Source: Candidatus Saccharimonadota bacterium (GTDB taxonomy: Bacteria; Patescibacteriota; Saccharimonadia; Saccharimonadales; Saccharimonadaceae). Taken from it: 37,710 nucleotides of DNA. Below, in pieces: positions 3,182 to 33,672 of this stretch (its first letter is position 1; every line of letters starts with the position of its first letter). The position numbers were made by a program, and so were the translations under genes. The stretch covers positions 1 to 37,710 of the forward strand of contig JAGCST010000020.1 of the NCBI GenBank assembly GCA_017964025.1, written 5' to 3'. Under the pieces are notes generated by a model that did not search any database, was not told the DNA's origin, and worked only from the letters and a program-made list of their open reading frames with translations.

Positions 3182-5833
3182 ATGTCTTTTATTAAAGGTA
3201 TACACGTTCGGATTTTTTCTGGATTTTGCTTACTGTTAAGCATATTTGCTTATTGTGATTTGTTTTATATTGATACAGTATTTGCTGAAGCCAAACAGAG
3301 TACTTTGTCTGTTAATATGACTCAGGGAATTCTTGCTATTTCACTAACACCAAGTGGTGATGGTATGTTTGGCAAATCTTCGAATTCTTCAATTGAAATT
3401 AGTACTGATAATTACTCTGGTTATTCTATGAAAATTGTTTCTTCTGGTTCGACTAGCTTGATGAATAGTGATAACGATGAGATTGAATCAATCAATTCAG
3501 CTATTAATGAGTCGACCTTTTCTTCTAATACTATCTATAATAATAAATGGGGATATGTCCCAAGCCAATACATAACTGAAAACAATAATTCTGTAACTGT
3601 AGTTAGCAATACTGATTATTTGCCTGCTCCATCTTCTGTAGGCGATCTATTAGCAAAGACTAGTGCTGCTAATAGCACTGATGATATATATACGCTTTCT
3701 TTTGGTGCTAGAGTTGATCATCAATTACCGCCAGGGACATATCAATATGCGTTTGTTCTTCAAATAGTAGCTAACCCAATAGTATACAACATTACTTATA
3801 ATGATAATACGACAGATACTGTTACTAATATGCCAAGTCTAAATCCTCAGGTTGTAGATATTGATGGTGGGACTCCAATAACAGATAGTTATGCTATATT
3901 AAGTGATGCAGTGCCAGCACGAGATGGAAAAAAATTTTCCGGGTGGTGTGATACAACAACTACTACAGATTCTAATTCTGATGACGATATATGTTCAGGG
4001 AATGTTTATCTTGCTGGTGAAAATTTACCGATAGATCAGACTGCAGGTCCAAATATCACACTTTATGCGATTTGGACAGGGACTACTTATGTATGTAAGG
4101 CGGCTACAGTACAACATACTGAAACATGCAACAGGGACAATAATGGATGTAACGGTGCAGGTTATGCTAATGGTGCTACCATTCAATATGGTTCTTTGAT
4201 ACAGCCCGGTGCGATTTCTCTGACTCCGGGTGATGCATTAACCTGTGACATTAATAATGATGGCACATTTAATGAAACTGATGAGAGATTTTATTATTAT
4301 GCAACAAATGGCGACAATGCAGAACTAATTTATTATAAAAATCTGTCTGATGCGGAAAATAATTACGATGGTGGATTAGCTTTACTGCCAACATCGAGCA
4401 CGGTTGGGTGGACTAACCCTGGTTTGGTGGTGTTCGGTGCTAGTTTACTGAACGGCGATTATGATGGTAAAGTAGCAAGGTTTATGAGCTACGAAGAAAT
4501 TGTGGCGGCCTGTGGTAATTCAACGACTGATTTTGGCGTTAATGGTAAATGTTTATATATTCTTGAAAAATCTAATTTTGCTAATACTGATATACGTGAT
4601 GGGTATTGGATTGGTAGAAGTAATCATTCTACTAGAGTACACACTTCTACTCGAAAAATCACTGATGGTTCGTTGGTGAATGGTGTACGTCCTGTGATTG
4701 AGGTGCCATTAAATTTGATTCAAATGCCGGCCGCACTAGATGTGACGAATGCGGTGATTGCGAATAATAATTTAACTGTAGCTGTAGGTAGGACTCTTAC
4801 GATTCAGGTGAGTAATTCAGCTTTACTTGAACCATATACATTTAGTTCTGTTGATGATTCAATTGCTTCAGTTGATGCTTCAACTGGAGTTGTGACTGGT
4901 GTTAGTGCTGGCACCGTGAATATTATTATGACTGGTGCTGATTCTGGTTTAACAAAAGTGATTGAGGTTGAGGTATTGCCATTCGCTCAAGAATTTACCG
5001 TAACATTTAATACTAATGGTGGTTCTTTGAACGACGGTGCTTCTAATACTAGAAACGTGATTGATGGTGATGAGGTCGGTGTTTTGCCGACAGCATCCAA
5101 GACAGATTACAAATTCTTTGGTTGGTATACTGATGATGGCACCTTCTATGACGAAGTATATCCTGAAATGATAGTAGAAGCCGATATAACTTTCTATGCA
5201 AAATGGGAAGAAGATTTATCGAGCTTCCCAATTATCTGGTCTGAGATTAATGAATGTATATTTACTGGAACTACAGTAACTGGTACTTATTGTGAACATA
5301 CAAATAATAGTTCATATTATATTGATACAGATATTCAATTATTCATTGCTGCTAACTATAATAAGAATTTTGAAGTTGGGTTTACGATAACTGAGTTTGA
5401 CCCAACTAGCCAGCTTTCTAATAGTGGTAACCAAGCAACTTTTGTCAGCTCTAAAAAAGAAGATAGTCTCAATAACTATCCTGGTTTTGTGATTCGTCGT
5501 TATAGTGGAACCAATTTCATTGAAATTACGTCTAGGTGGAAGGACGATGCGCAGTCTTTATCTAAGAATGACCTCCCATATGCGACTACAAAGACTGTAA
5601 AATTGCAGAAACGCAAAGAAACCGAACAGGGCAACGACTACTATCGTATTTATTATTCGATTAACGGTGGCACTTGGACATTATATGAAGATGTAACCAA
5701 TAAGACTTATTTCGAATTTAATACTAAAATTTGGTTTGGTGGTGCTGCGAATTCAAATGGTGTTTCTCCGATGCGTCCATTGGTCGGTAAAATGACTGAT
5801 ATGTATGTGAAGTTAGGTTTAGGGAGCGAGTAA
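3182..5833 (+). CDS. Large secreted multidomain surface protein (InlB-like repeats, Big2, lectin-like end)
   Basis: An 883-residue exported protein. Order seen: N-terminal signal or anchor (hydrophobic 10-28, possible cleavage after VFAEA); a beta-rich domain to about 205 ending in VANP; an InlB/Listeria-Bacteroides-type repeat (about 205-300, FSGW ... LYAIW); a calcium-loop-like DINNDGTFNETDE near 356; a DUF6273-like domain (about 370-508, ending GVRPVIEVP); a Big2-like Ig domain (516-600); a second InlB-type repeat (608-678, VTFNTNGGS ... FYAKW); and a C-terminal concanavalin/LamG-like region (683-883). There is no LPxTG motif or C-terminal membrane segment, so attachment may rely on the N-terminal hydrophobic segment. 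It shares its first half with the minus-strand protein at 34526-36280. A role in adhesion to a host cell is inferred only. Confidence 0.75.
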   Translation: MSFIKGIHVRIFSGFCLLLSIFAYCDLFYIDTVFAEAKQSTLSVNMTQGILAISLTPSGDGMFGKSSNSSIEISTDNYSGYSMKIVSSGSTSLMNSDNDEIESINSAINESTFSSNTIYNNKWGYVPSQYITENNNSVTVVSNTDYLPAPSSVGDLLAKTSAANSTDDIYTLSFGARVDHQLPPGTYQYAFVLQIVANPIVYNITYNDNTTDTVTNMPSLNPQVVDIDGGTPITDSYAILSDAVPARDGKKFSGWCDTTTTTDSNSDDDICSGNVYLAGENLPIDQTAGPNITLYAIWTGTTYVCKAATVQHTETCNRDNNGCNGAGYANGATIQYGSLIQPGAISLTPGDALTCDINNDGTFNETDERFYYYATNGDNAELIYYKNLSDAENNYDGGLALLPTSSTVGWTNPGLVVFGASLLNGDYDGKVARFMSYEEIVAACGNSTTDFGVNGKCLYILEKSNFANTDIRDGYWIGRSNHSTRVHTSTRKITDGSLVNGVRPVIEVPLNLIQMPAALDVTNAVIANNNLTVAVGRTLTIQVSNSALLEPYTFSSVDDSIASVDASTGVVTGVSAGTVNIIMTGADSGLTKVIEVEVLPFAQEFTVTFNTNGGSLNDGASNTRNVIDGDEVGVLPTASKTDYKFFGWYTDDGTFYDEVYPEMIVEADITFYAKWEEDLSSFPIIWSEINECIFTGTTVTGTYCEHTNNSSYYIDTDIQLFIAANYNKNFEVGFTITEFDPTSQLSNSGNQATFVSSKKEDSLNNYPGFVIRRYSGTNFIEITSRWKDDAQSLSKNDLPYATTKTVKLQKRKETEQGNDYYRIYYSINGGTWTLYEDVTNKTYFEFNTKIWFGGAANSNGVSPMRPLVGKMTDMYVKLGLGSE

Positions 5834-5845
5834 TCATAATTATTA

Positions 5846-5854
5846 TGTTATAAT
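5846..5854 (+). promoter_or_regulatory. Extended -10 box, leaderless start of rmuC
   Basis: TGTTATAAT followed by 7 bases and the ATG at 5862. No Shine-Dalgarno is present. Confidence 0.65.
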
Positions 5855-5861
5855 ATAGCGT

Positions 5862-7028
5862 ATGGATATAGTGTTTATTATTTTAGATGTAGTAATTATT
5901 ATTCTGTTGATTGTCGCTATTGTTTTACTTTTAAAAAAGAATTCGACTAATAATTATTCTTCCGATCTCAAAACAATGAGTGAAAGATTAATCCGAGTTG
6001 AAGGTGAGATTACCAAGATTAATCCGGTAATAGATCGGAATTTTCGTGAGAATCGTAAAGAAATTTCAGAGAACTTAGAACGAATGCAGAATAGTAATGC
6101 TAAGAGTATTGAACAGCTTAGGACAGGAAATGAGAAAAAATTGGAAGAAATGCGTGAAACTGTGGATGAAAAATTAAAAGCTAGTGTAGAAAAACGTTTT
6201 GATGAAAGCTTTAAATCAATTTCTGCGCAATTGACACAGGTTTATCAAGGTTTGGGCGAAGTAAAAAATATGACTTCTGAAGTAGGAAGTTTGAAAAAAG
6301 TGATGGAGGGCGTAAAGACGCGTGGTATTTATGGTGAGGTACAATTGGGGGCAATTATTGAAGATATTTTAAATAAATCTCAGTATGAAGAAAACGTGAT
6401 TACAAAAAAAGGAAGTACTGATAGAGTAGAATTTGCTATTAAGATGCCAGGAAAAGATACAGATAGTTTAGTATATTTGCCTATTGATAGTAAATTTCCA
6501 GTAGAGAATTATTCTAGACTAATTGCAGCTTATGAAAATGGCGAAAAAGCCGAAATAGATAAATATTCTAAAGCTTTAGCTAATGATGTAAAAGAACAAG
6601 CTAAAAAAATTTCTACTAAATATTTAGATCCGCCGATGACTACAGACTTTGGAATGATGTTTGTGCCGACAGAATCTTTGTATGCAGAAATTTTACGGGT
6701 TCCAGGATTATCGGATGAAATTAGACAAAAATATAACGTTTCAATTACTAGTCCATCAACTTTACCAGTAGCTTTGAATGGTTTGTTGATGGGATTTAGA
6801 ACTGTAGCAATAGAGAAACGTTCAGCTGAGGTTTGGCAAAAACTCGGAGCTGTAAAAACACAATTTGGAAAGTTTTCAGATTTGCTTGAGGGTGTACAGA
6901 AAAAACTTCAAGAATCTGCAAATAAAATCGAATCAGCTAAAACTACTTCTCGTCAAATTGAGAAAAAACTTAAAGATGTCGAAGAATTGCCAGAGGCTGA
7001 TTCAATTAAATTAATTGGTGAGATATGA
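5862..7028 (+). CDS. rmuC: RmuC family DNA recombination protein
   Basis: 388 residues, typical of shorter RmuC proteins. A single N-terminal membrane segment (about 4-24) is followed by a long coiled coil (about 35-145). Then comes the conserved nuclease-like domain with RGIYGEVQLGAIIEDIL, LPIDSKFPVENY, TTDFGMMFVPTESLYAEI and the SPSTLPVALNGLLMGFR region. RmuC is linked to limiting inversions and processing stalled or damaged DNA. Here it heads a run of same-strand genes, and its TGA stop overlaps the next ATG by 4 bases. The use of TGA as stop supports the standard code. Confidence 0.93.
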   Translation: MDIVFIILDVVIIILLIVAIVLLLKKNSTNNYSSDLKTMSERLIRVEGEITKINPVIDRNFRENRKEISENLERMQNSNAKSIEQLRTGNEKKLEEMRETVDEKLKASVEKRFDESFKSISAQLTQVYQGLGEVKNMTSEVGSLKKVMEGVKTRGIYGEVQLGAIIEDILNKSQYEENVITKKGSTDRVEFAIKMPGKDTDSLVYLPIDSKFPVENYSRLIAAYENGEKAEIDKYSKALANDVKEQAKKISTKYLDPPMTTDFGMMFVPTESLYAEILRVPGLSDEIRQKYNVSITSPSTLPVALNGLLMGFRTVAIEKRSAEVWQKLGAVKTQFGKFSDLLEGVQKKLQESANKIESAKTTSRQIEKKLKDVEELPEADSIKLIGEI

Positions 7029-8557
7029 GCAAAAATATGAAAAAGGAAAAAGAAAGAGGAATTAAGGCTAAATTTAATAGAAATGCTGACTATACATTGA
7101 TTTTTGTGTTAGATGCGGTAGGTATGATTTTAGAATTAGTAGCAGCAAGGTTGATGTCGCCATATTTTGGCAATAGTAACTTTGTTTGGACGGCTATTAT
7201 TGGCATTATTCTATTGGCTGGAAGTTTAGGTAATTTAATTGGCGGTAGAATTGCGTCTAGTAAATATCCAAGATATATAGCTTATATTTTATTATTATTT
7301 GCATCTGTTTATATTGCCGTTACGCCACTAGTAGATACAGTTATATTGAATTCTGTAAAAGAATTAAATACTAGCACACAATTTGCATCTGTGATTGGGA
7401 GTATAATCTTTTTCTTAATTCCGTCTACTATTCTTGGAATAATAACACCGATTATTATGAAAGAAAAAATTGGTGATAGCGAAGATAAAGGTAAGGAATC
7501 GGGCAAGATTACAGCTACTATTGCACTGGGTAGCTTAGTAGGAACTTTCGTAGGTGGTTTTTGGTTAATTCCTGCGATGGGGACAAGAATGATATTTGTG
7601 ATAATTGCTATGATAATTTTGACGATTGCCGCTTTGCTTAAACCGTTGAAAACTATATATGATATTAAAATACGTAGTGCTACTGTGATAGTAAAGATTC
7701 TAGTTGCTATTATAGTAACAGTAGCATGTTTTAAGGTTGGATTAACTAATAATAATGAAGTCATCAGTATAGACACAGAATATGGTCGGATATTAGTTGA
7801 AGATGGATTTTATAATGGTCAACCAGTGCGTTTTTATAAACAGAGTGGAGCTTATTCCTCTGCTACTTATACTGACGATGAATTTAAATATGATTTGGTG
7901 TTTGAATATGTAGCTTCTTACGATGAAATGTTCAAATTCTTAGATGTTAATGATGTCGCAATGATAGGAGGTGCAGCTTATCAATATCCAAAATATTTTA
8001 TCTCTCACTTTCCTAATAAAACTATGGATGTAGTGGAAATTGATCCTAAATCTACGGAAATCGCTAAACAATATTTTTATTTAGATGATTTATTGGCTGA
8101 TTATGGTACGGATAGATTAGGCCTTTATAATGATGACGGTAGGCTGTTTATGGCCAATGGTGACAAAAAATATGATGCAATTTTAAATGATGCATTTTCT
8201 GGAGAAGTGCCAGTTGCAGGGTTATCAACTGTAGAGGCAGTTAAAACTATAAAAAGTCGTCTAAATAAGGATGGCGTATATATGTCAAACATAATTGGTG
8301 CGCTAGAGGGGCGTAAGGGAGCATTTCTGCGTGCTGAAGTTAAAACTATGCAGCAAGTATTTAAAAATGTTTATGTAGTGCCCGTATATCGGCATTTTGA
8401 GACTGATCAATTTATTAATTGGATGGTGATTGCTACGGATAATGATAAATATGTACCAAAAAAAGTTGTTAATGTGAAAATAAATGATGAAGATATAATA
8501 TTAACTGATGATTATAATCCTGTTGATAGTTTGGTGAGAACAGAATATTTTGATTAA
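7025..8557 (+). CDS. Membrane-fused spermidine synthase-like methyltransferase-fold protein
   Basis: 510 residues. The N-terminal half (about 20-240) holds roughly seven membrane segments, including the LVAARLMSPYFG stretch seen in fused MFS/spermidine-synthase proteins. The C-terminal half (about 250-510) is a Rossmann-type spermidine synthase-like domain with IGGAAYQYPKYF, the acidic ribose-binding VVEIDPKS, NDDGRLFM and ILNDAFSG. Such fusions are common but their substrates are mostly unproven. True polyamine synthesis cannot be assumed, since no SAM decarboxylase is visible nearby. The start overlaps the rmuC stop (ATGA), so it is translationally coupled. Confidence 0.85.
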   Translation: MSKNMKKEKERGIKAKFNRNADYTLIFVLDAVGMILELVAARLMSPYFGNSNFVWTAIIGIILLAGSLGNLIGGRIASSKYPRYIAYILLLFASVYIAVTPLVDTVILNSVKELNTSTQFASVIGSIIFFLIPSTILGIITPIIMKEKIGDSEDKGKESGKITATIALGSLVGTFVGGFWLIPAMGTRMIFVIIAMIILTIAALLKPLKTIYDIKIRSATVIVKILVAIIVTVACFKVGLTNNNEVISIDTEYGRILVEDGFYNGQPVRFYKQSGAYSSATYTDDEFKYDLVFEYVASYDEMFKFLDVNDVAMIGGAAYQYPKYFISHFPNKTMDVVEIDPKSTEIAKQYFYLDDLLADYGTDRLGLYNDDGRLFMANGDKKYDAILNDAFSGEVPVAGLSTVEAVKTIKSRLNKDGVYMSNIIGALEGRKGAFLRAEVKTMQQVFKNVYVVPVYRHFETDQFINWMVIATDNDKYVPKKVVNVKINDEDIILTDDYNPVDSLVRTEYFD

Positions 8558-8576
8558 CGATTAGTACTACTCTTTA

Positions 8577-8585
8577 TGTTATAAT
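8577..8585 (+). promoter_or_regulatory. Extended -10 box, leaderless start of the gpsA-like gene
   Basis: TGTTATAAT followed by 7 bases and the ATG at 8593. No Shine-Dalgarno. Confidence 0.65.
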
Positions 8586-8592
8586 AAATAAT

Positions 8593-9372
8593 ATGAAAAT
8601 TGCAATACTTGGTGCGGGAGCGTTTGGTACGGCTCTCGGCGGAATTTTGGCCGATAATCATTATGATATTGATTATTATGACCCTAAATTCGGAAAAGAA
8701 AATTTATCAGATGTGTTGAATGGGGCAGATTATGTAGTATTATGTGCACCATCTAATGCAGTATCAAATATATTACCACTTTTACCAAAGGATATCTCGT
8801 TGATTATAGCGACCAAAGGTTTATTCGGTGATAAACTGTTTCATGATTTTAAAGATTATATGGTATTATCTGGTCCAGGTTTTGCGAATGATATCAAGGC
8901 TAAAAAAGAAACAAAATTTACTGTTACTGATGATCGGTTAGTAAAGTTGTTTAAAGCTAAGTATATTGTTTTTGATCAAACAGATGATAAAAATGGGGTA
9001 TTGATGTGCGGAGCACTTAAAAATGTTTATGCAATTTGGGCAGGTGTTCTAGGATTAAAACGAGATACGGCTAAATGGAAAAAATATATCAATGATGTAG
9101 TGAAAGAGATGAGAGATGTATTGGCGGCTAATGGGGCAAAAGGCGATACGGCGGGTTTAGTTTGTGGAATTTCTGATCTTAAATTAACATGTGATTATCC
9201 TTCGCGTAATTATGAATTTGGTGATAATTTGAGACTTGATCCAAATTTTGTATCTCAAAAAACGGTTGAAGGTTTGTCGGCACTAAGGAGACTAGAGAGT
9301 GGTGAAATTAAAATACCAAGTAAGGCTAACATACTAAAGAAGATAATTAAAGAAAGCTATAAATGGAATTAA
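8593..9372 (+). CDS. gpsA: Glycerol-3-phosphate dehydrogenase [NAD(P)+], shortened
   Basis: 259 residues, against about 330 for usual GpsA. Conserved parts are present: the dinucleotide motif GAGAFGTALG (7-16), ATKG, SGPGFANDI, the substrate-site GALKNVYAIWAG with its lysine, and late GISDLKLTCDYPSRNYEFG. The shortening appears spread through the N-terminal Rossmann part and linkers rather than as one broken end. It would make sn-glycerol 3-phosphate for lipid synthesis. Start by leaderless promoter. Its end overlaps the helicase start by 10 bases. The family is clear; activity with the reduced length is unproven. Confidence 0.8.
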   Translation: MKIAILGAGAFGTALGGILADNHYDIDYYDPKFGKENLSDVLNGADYVVLCAPSNAVSNILPLLPKDISLIIATKGLFGDKLFHDFKDYMVLSGPGFANDIKAKKETKFTVTDDRLVKLFKAKYIVFDQTDDKNGVLMCGALKNVYAIWAGVLGLKRDTAKWKKYINDVVKEMRDVLAANGAKGDTAGLVCGISDLKLTCDYPSRNYEFGDNLRLDPNFVSQKTVEGLSALRRLESGEIKIPSKANILKKIIKESYKWN

Positions 9373-32484: not shown

Positions 32485-32513
32485 AAAAAGTCGCGGACTT
32501 CTATCCGCGGACT
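32483..32513 (-). terminator. Terminator of the sigma4/alpha-CTD-like gene
   Basis: On the minus strand a GC-rich hairpin, arms AGTCCGCGGA and TCCGCGACT with one bulge, followed by seven T. It overlaps the stop codon of the convergent ABC transporter gene. Confidence 0.8.
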
Positions 32514-32527
32514 TACTTCTTCGGGAA

Positions 32528-33391
32528 TTATTTTTTAAGGGATAAGCCTCTGGTTTTCAGAGCACTTTTGATGTCTGAAATACCTTTCTGACCTATACTC
32601 ATTTTTGACAGTGCCTGTGAGCTAAGAGAACACAGAGTAGCTATATCTTTAATGCCGACGGCATTAAGAGATGCGATTAGCTTATCTGAGAGACCTAAGC
32701 TCTGCAGCGTAAATGAGTTGGTAGTGGCTTCTTCGCCGAATATTTCGGCTTCTTTTTGGCGATATCTTTCTCTAGCCGAAGCGAGAGCTTCGTTTTTTGC
32801 AGCAAGTTTTTCCTCTAGCGATGAAATGGTCTTTGCGGCCATTTTGTTATCACTTTTGGCCTCTGCCAGCTGTTTCTGGAGAGATTCTTGCTCGTGCTGA
32901 GCTCTAGCTAGCTTTTCGCTGTAGGCTTTGATCGTTTGGCTAAGTCTAGCCTCGTTCTCTTTGGAAGACTGGAGTCTAAAGAAGAGTTCTTTTTTCTCCT
33001 GATCTTCACCGCTGAAACGGAGACCTTTTTCAGCCAGTTCGTATATCTCCTTGATATCCGGTACCAGTTTTTTAAGCTGGCCTTTGTAAGGTGATGCCTG
33101 CAGTTTTTTGATGGCTTTGTGAGCCATTTTTGATATCTGGTTCGGATCCATGTTGGATTCTGCTGCAATCTGTTTCTGCAGTTGCTTTTCGCAGTTGAAC
33201 CCAAACCCCCTTAGAAGAAGGTCCTTTTCTTCTTTAGTGAGAGCGCTATCGAAAATCTTAAACATCTTTTGATAGTTATATGGTGGAATTCCGATTGGGC
33301 ACTCTGCCACGTTAGTGATAGCTATAATCAGGTTCTGACCTGGGGTTCTTGAGCTTCTTCCGAATATATTATTTTTTTCTGCATTCTTCAT
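32528..33391 (-). CDS. Sigma region 4-like / coiled coil / RNAP alpha-CTD-like fusion protein
   Basis: 287 residues in three parts. Residues 48-99 resemble sigma-70 region 4 (LTKEEKDLLLRGFGF, then KQIAAESNMDPNQISKMAHK and AIKKL, as in the helix-turn-helix before the terminal helix). Residues 132-218 are a charged heptad-rich coiled coil. Residues 227-287 resemble the RNA polymerase alpha C-terminal domain: LGLSDKLIASLNAVGIKDI and MSIGQKGISDIKSALKTRG, ending LSL. Compared with E. coli alpha, the DNA-contact R265 position is K and N268 is not kept. No sigma region 2 or 3 is present, so it is not a complete sigma factor. It is visibly richer in G+C than its neighbours. A promoter-recruiting transcription regulator is the simplest inference. 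Confidence 0.7.
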   Translation of the reverse strand: MKNAEKNNIFGRSSRTPGQNLIIAITNVAECPIGIPPYNYQKMFKIFDSALTKEEKDLLLRGFGFNCEKQLQKQIAAESNMDPNQISKMAHKAIKKLQASPYKGQLKKLVPDIKEIYELAEKGLRFSGEDQEKKELFFRLQSSKENEARLSQTIKAYSEKLARAQHEQESLQKQLAEAKSDNKMAAKTISSLEEKLAAKNEALASARERYRQKEAEIFGEEATTNSFTLQSLGLSDKLIASLNAVGIKDIATLCSLSSQALSKMSIGQKGISDIKSALKTRGLSLKK

Positions 33392-33457: not shown

Positions 33458-33490
33458 TTCAGCCTTCTTCCTCCTATCCCTATTAGATTT

Positions 33491-33544
33491 AGTTTGATCA
33501 CAGAATTAAATTTACAAATATAAACTTGGTTCTGTGATCAAACT
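33491..33544. repeat. Perfect 15-bp inverted repeat in a divergent promoter region
   Basis: AGTTTGATCACAGAA (33491-33505) and its exact complement (33530-33544), separated by 24 bases. It lies about 35-90 bases inside the predicted leader of the minus-strand gene. No T-run follows on that strand, so it is not a standard terminator. It could be two operator sites or a long mRNA hairpin. Confidence 0.85.
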
Positions 33545-33586
33545 ATTCACCGAAGTTAATTTGCGATACTTGACGTATATGTTTCT

Positions 33587-33615
33587 ATTATATCATAACA
33601 TATATTTTTTGTCAA
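33587..33615 (-). promoter_or_regulatory. Consensus promoter of the sigma4/alpha-CTD-like gene
   Basis: On the minus strand TTGACA (33610-33615), exactly 17 bases, TATAAT (33587-33592), an exact match to the consensus. The predicted leader is about 190 bases. The rest of the 338-base gene-free stretch holds the inverted repeat, the heptamer pair and the + strand promoter. Confidence 0.9.
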
Positions 33616-33643: not shown

Positions 33644-33672
33644 TTGACATGAATCAATATTTATGTTAAAAT
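33644..33672 (+). promoter_or_regulatory. Near-consensus promoter of the 33730 gene
   Basis: TTGACA (33644-33649), 17 bases, TAAAAT (33667-33672). Divergent from the minus-strand promoter, 28 bases from its -35. Confidence 0.8.

Follow-up and report, generated by a model that had tools for sequence, protein, structure and literature searches.

The fusion gene described here lies on the reverse strand of a 37,710-nucleotide stretch of DNA from a gut-dwelling Candidatus Saccharimonadota bacterium (hereafter the window). It encodes a protein in which a sigma region 4-like domain (sigma4), a long helix and a domain resembling the C-terminal domain of the RNA polymerase alpha subunit (alpha-CTD) follow one another in a single chain, and it is preceded by a predicted promoter, a structured leader and a divergently oriented small gene (Table 1). 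At 32491-32513, between the fusion gene and a converging ABC transporter gene, lies a short inverted repeat that is rich in G+C and has A/T runs; read by eye, it looks like a two-way terminator.

Table 1. Positions of the fusion gene, its domains and the adjoining features in the window
Feature	Position	Strand	Basis and remarks
Fusion gene, sigma4 - coiled coil - alpha-CTD protein (P0001)	32528..33391	-	ORF, ATG start, 287 aa; family alignment A2
N-terminal segment, residues 1-35	33287..33391	-	Conserved 'GQN(L/V)..AI' motif; without known domain
Sigma region 4-like domain, residues 36-111	33059..33286	-	Z 9.5 to SigA region 4; host RpoD region 4 picked up by the family profile
One long helix (residues 129-224), predicted to form a coiled coil	32720..33007	-	AlphaFold2 model
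Alpha-CTD-like domain, residues 226-287	32531..32716	-	Profile and structure matches; R265 equivalent is Lys
Sigma70 promoter of fusion gene, TTGACA-17-TATAAT	33587..33615	-	Predicted from sequence; predicted start about 33579
Conserved element of the 5' leader RNA, modelled as R1; its long hairpin has arms at 33490-33505 and 33530-33545	33477..33565	-	Covariance
Divergent small helical gene, 153 aa	33730..34188	+	Also divergent to the fusion gene of G464; weakly TPR-like model
Promoter of divergent gene, TTGACA-17-TAAAAT	33644..33672	+	Predicted from sequence

Domain architecture of the fusion protein

The C-terminal part of the window protein is matched by the RNA_pol_A_CTD profile (PF03118) over residues 221-279 with 21.8 bits in hmmscan and 23.8 bits in the genome search, the Pfam cut-off being 23.8, and it also matches the Thermus thermophilus alpha subunit (E 4e-5). 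By itself, the sigma4 part of the window protein gives a weak match (TIGR02937 at residues 45-98, E 0.0085) and falls below the Pfam cut-off for Sigma70_r4. The domain assignment was settled by the relatives, since the sigma4 part of one of them (L002, 27.5 bits for Sigma70_r4) and the alpha-CTD part of another (L004) both exceed the Pfam cut-offs.

From the AlphaFold2 model, which was built on a ten-member alignment and has a mean pLDDT of 86, a sigma4-like helical bundle can be seen, followed by one continuous helix and then by the helix order of an alpha-CTD. In structural alignment with VIA-align, residues 226-287 superimpose on the E. coli alpha-CTD with Z 11.8 (1.3 Å over 62 residues, 31% identity), and residues 36-111 on SigA region 4 with Z 9.5 (about 75 residues). 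The two ends that the initial annotation had assigned to these folds are thus confirmed as such by modelling and structural comparison. Its coiled-coil joiner is likewise recovered as a long helix, but one of 96 residues rather than about 85. Foldseek ranked alpha-CTD structures at the top and also listed sigma4 structures at high probability, with E-values that are poor for this model because the domains are short. A chance join or a generic HhH fold is ruled out by the structure match together with the family profile; as modelled, the window protein is a sigma4 fold, a coiled coil and an alpha-CTD fold in one chain.

No match to sigma regions 2 or 3 was detected in the window protein, as had been proposed: Sigma70_r2 gave none up to E 10, and no region 2 is discernible from the helix order of the 287-aa model. 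The Pfam scan found no alpha N-terminal domain either. Since the host also encodes a normal complete RpoA with its own alpha-CTD (317 aa) and a normal complete RpoD (335 aa), the fusion is an extra protein rather than a split subunit, and a split-off alpha subunit is ruled out by the full RpoA. The likeness to the RNA polymerase alpha C-terminal domain (PF03118) is one of fold over residues 226-287, in a protein that, unlike alpha, has no N-terminal alpha domain, has lost R265 and is joined to a coil and a sigma4-like domain. The likeness to sigma-70 region 4 (PF04545; RpoD) is similarly one of fold over residues 36-111, whereas regions 2 and 3 are absent and the recognition helix is changed.

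Family, DNA-contact residues and gene composition

A family profile made from only three members was run against 295 genomes belonging to the order and 100 belonging to the genus. In most genus genomes, its positions 47-110 pick the housekeeping RpoD region 4 and its positions 224-284 the alpha-CTD of RpoA. The suggested search for homologues and their neighbourhoods in Saccharibacteria yielded window-type proteins in 15 of 174 genus genomes (G000, G383, G464, G089, G873, G468, G837, G361, G195, G461, G430, G881, G885, G404 and G462), with a sporadic distribution and with the linked small genes described below. Relatives in the ten-member alignment are 20-36% identical to the window protein. 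Three relatives are from Candidatus Saccharibacteria MAGs, two of which come from sheep ileum and jejunum.

Compact proteins with clear sigma4 and alpha-CTD domains are present in the same family of genomes (L050, L052, L058 and L138) and in other Patescibacteria (L079 and L081), with domain bit scores of 57.5 and 72.6 for L050 and of 62.6 and 59.7 for L079. The same pairing is found in Bacteroidota-type mobile DNA (L070, L074-L076, L077 and L078). These clearer fusions indicate that the pairing is recurrent and not a chance join. Of these, L050, L052, L058, L079 and L081, and L070, L077 and L078 of Bacteroidota mobile DNA, have the same domain order in one chain as the window type, but differ from it by a shorter linker and by lacking the leader element wherever their loci were searched for it, and two of the Bacteroidota proteins start with another HTH. 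At the Bacteroidota-type loci (L070:948-1856, L078:5001-5996 and L077:7674-8555), which are phage-like scaffolds and a Chryseobacterium plasmid, this extra HTH of two fusions is excisionase-like. The view that no such family had been described fits our literature searches, which turned up nothing on this fusion, but the domain pairing is not unique to this locus. The single annotated copy is named merely 'alpha C-terminal domain-containing protein'.

In two genomes (G150 and G395), the site that the fusion gene occupies in the window, downstream of the same ABC transporter, holds a compact type instead. A different, short-linker sigma4+alpha-CTD gene lies at this site beside the transporter at L052:8638-9414 and L065:6244-7062, without the hairpin leader. 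In genome G066, a sigma4+alpha-CTD gene (L059 about 7961-8680, equal to L003 about 1430-2100; alpha-CTD 63.5 bits) is interrupted by two in-frame TAA codons and otherwise open, which is either a decayed gene or an assembly error.

R265 is the arginine by which alpha-CTD contacts UP DNA, and region 4.2 of sigma reads the -35 element. When aligned to the host RpoA, none of the 13 window-type proteins has Arg at the R265 position, whereas Arg is kept in nine of the ten other sigma4+alpha-CTD fusions aligned. The region 4.2 recognition helix of window-type proteins is also no longer RpoD-like. As the window's clade has lost both sets of residues, it is doubtful that the protein bridges -35 and UP DNA in the canonical way, one of the roles first suggested for it, and binding of DNA or polymerase by the window protein is not assured. 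The folds have been kept, but the standard -35 and UP readout has probably been lost.

The fusion gene is richer in G+C than its surroundings, as noted at the outset: its GC3 is 0.429, compared with a mean of 0.257 (sd 0.036, maximum 0.34) for 30 other window genes. In each of ten window-type loci examined, the GC3 of the fusion gene exceeded the local mean. Amino-acid composition as the sole cause is ruled out, since GC3 is high too. The raised GC3 and the patchy distribution suggest, without amounting to proof, that the gene is accessory and perhaps acquired. Pattern search of IMG/VR and a search of a phage collection, both weak for diverged proteins, gave no relative of the window protein, so that a phage origin is without support from them.

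Promoter, leader RNA and small neighbour genes

A near-consensus sigma70 promoter with at most one mismatch to TTGACA-17-TATAAT was present in all 14 upstream regions scanned, its -35 element beginning 177-247 nt upstream of the start codon. The predicted transcript of the fusion gene opens with a leader of about 190 nt that holds the long hairpin. Among 12 distinct leader sequences, 16 of the 19 hairpin pairs are changed on both sides and 94% of cells pair. Two-sided changes occupy 37 cells, compared with a mean of 11.3 and a maximum of 19 in 1000 shuffles, a figure that leans upward because the shuffles ignore relatedness and the alignment was fitted to the model. RNAalifold run on a plain MAFFT alignment of the leaders agrees with the hairpin (15 of 20 pairs).

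The covariance model R1 matched in nine of 147 genomes, in each case upstream of a fusion gene. Its match in G837 preceded the discovery of the fusion gene there, and it recovered the leaders of four genes outside the seed (L133-L136). The leader hairpin is missing in G089, and in G383 its place is taken by a different inverted repeat. No second copy of the element was found in the genome, and a role as a regulon operator or marker is ruled out by this single copy. Nor does it belong to an RNA family known to Rfam, where the window leader had no match up to E 1 and seven relatives had none at the gathering threshold. In these Saccharibacteria, a SAM riboswitch was seen upstream of a metK-like gene (L056:11537-11631 and L060:14179-14273).

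All 15 window-type members adjoin one of three types of small helical gene. Type 1 is a convergent gene for a protein of about 100-120 aa (seven genomes, two different chromosomal sites), type 2 a divergent gene for a protein of about 120-150 aa next to fusA (six genomes), and type 3 the gene of the window and G464 (two genomes, two different sites). Strong matches of the families A8 (seven genomes) and A9 (six genomes) all adjoin a fusion gene, and the first two types are almost confined to genomes that carry one, with weak extra matches in G880, G424 and G406. The type 3 domain is not exclusive in this way, since genomes that lack the fusion gene also carry relatives of it, either stand-alone or as part of TrbL/VirB6-like membrane proteins. 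Such membrane proteins were seen at L163:883-3291 and L165:1-2406, and small stand-alone genes across the genus. The fold model of the 153-aa partner is of low confidence (pLDDT 68), with weak TPR-like matches at best. The two divergent -35 elements in the window are 28 bp apart, and one protein bound there could therefore affect both promoters. While the domain identification of the initial annotation stands, it had missed both the leader structure and the small gene linked to the fusion gene.

Proposed role, alternatives and known systems

We propose, with about even confidence, that the window protein is an accessory, self-regulated, coiled-coil transcription regulator assembled from the two promoter-recognition modules of RNA polymerase. 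This reading builds on the folds, the family, the covarying leader restricted to the gene and the linked small genes, and on promoters that are predicted from sequence. In the coiled-coil dimer that the protein probably forms, a pair of sigma4-like heads and a pair of alpha-CTD-like heads would lie far from each other. Since the standard -35 and UP contact residues are lost, the heads would most likely serve as docking surfaces on RNA polymerase, or as readers of a changed DNA site. In the former case, the sigma4-like head may dock on the beta flap and the alpha-CTD-like head on sigma4 or alpha. We think that the protein acts mainly on its own locus, to which the adjoining promoter of the divergent partner gene belongs. 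The amount of protein made would be set by the leader hairpin, and the small neighbour protein is a likely partner or modulator. The gene, its own hairpin leader and the small neighbour suggest a small self-contained regulatory cassette. A tentative and rather doubtful extension is that this is a new Saccharibacteria cassette in which the coiled-coil sigma4/alpha-CTD protein, its structured leader RNA and a small partner protein dedicated to it would jointly handle RNA polymerase, the leader or the partner acting as sensor.

The main rival is a polymerase decoy or appropriator, in which the sigma4-like head sits on the beta flap, or region-4-binding factors are bound by the heads, as the initial annotation had suggested for a decoy, so as to inhibit or redirect the host RNA polymerase. 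The keeping of the folds while DNA-contact residues are lost would fit such a protein, as would the sporadic distribution of the window type and the related fusions on phage-like scaffolds and a plasmid. However, window-type genes stand at fixed chromosomal sites by core genes such as fusA, and no phage genes were recognised adjoining them; we regard this explanation as unlikely. Precedents for a sigma4-like function or target on a separate small protein are T4 gp33 and AsiA, phage proteins that inhibit or redirect host RNA polymerase, and the two-part sigma SigO-RsoA of Bacillus subtilis; we know of no alpha-CTD fusion or structured leader in any of them. It is distinctly unlikely that the protein is a coiled-coil nucleic-acid binder (HTH plus HhH-like folds) acting on DNA architecture or on its own leader RNA without contacting RNA polymerase. 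The alpha-CTD does belong to the HhH-like folds and the leader hairpin is found solely with the fusion gene, but profile and structure alike match the two ends to polymerase modules.

The inverted repeat of the leader might instead be a DNA operator for the dimer rather than an RNA structure, which would be compatible with the regulator reading, and the half-site core GATYGCAGAA is indeed alike in most members. The repeat is, however, downstream of the predicted promoter and within the transcript, and its loop length varies widely. Moreover, one-sided changes counted from the pair table comprise 18 G-U against 5 A-C cells, an excess that is expected for RNA and favours RNA structure, making an operator improbable. 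Least likely is a selfish or toxin-antitoxin-like cassette in which either the small helical protein or the leader RNA would be the antidote to the fusion protein. While the gene, leader and small gene co-occur patchily, and the raised GC3 in most hosts suggests an accessory origin, a toxin fold is absent, the leader consists of a single hairpin instead of the repeats of type III systems, and PADLOC gave no system beyond weak matches to the coil.

The genomes of Saccharibacteria are tiny, and few of their regulators have been characterised. The recurrent recombination of the polymerase's two upstream promoter-recognition modules offers a handle on how transcription may be steered without a full sigma factor, and the covarying leader and linked small genes make the cassette testable as a unit. 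Since sigma4+alpha-CTD fusions recur in mobile elements of Bacteroidota, they may represent a broader class of regulators that has yet to be named.

Among known defence proteins, neither MzaA nor PglW gave a match to the window protein, and no MzaB-type gene was recognised beside its gene; the compact L050 protein gave a match to the sigma4 portion of MzaA, which belongs to the MZA defence system (E 6e-12). In G460, an MZA-like defence locus of Saccharibacteria was observed (L051:3787-7213), in which a gene for an MzaB-like ATPase (E 1e-33) is followed by one for a 636-aa protein (5306-7213) with two alpha-CTD-like domains, a sigma4 domain, a weak HARE-HTH match and a match to PglW (E 3e-9).
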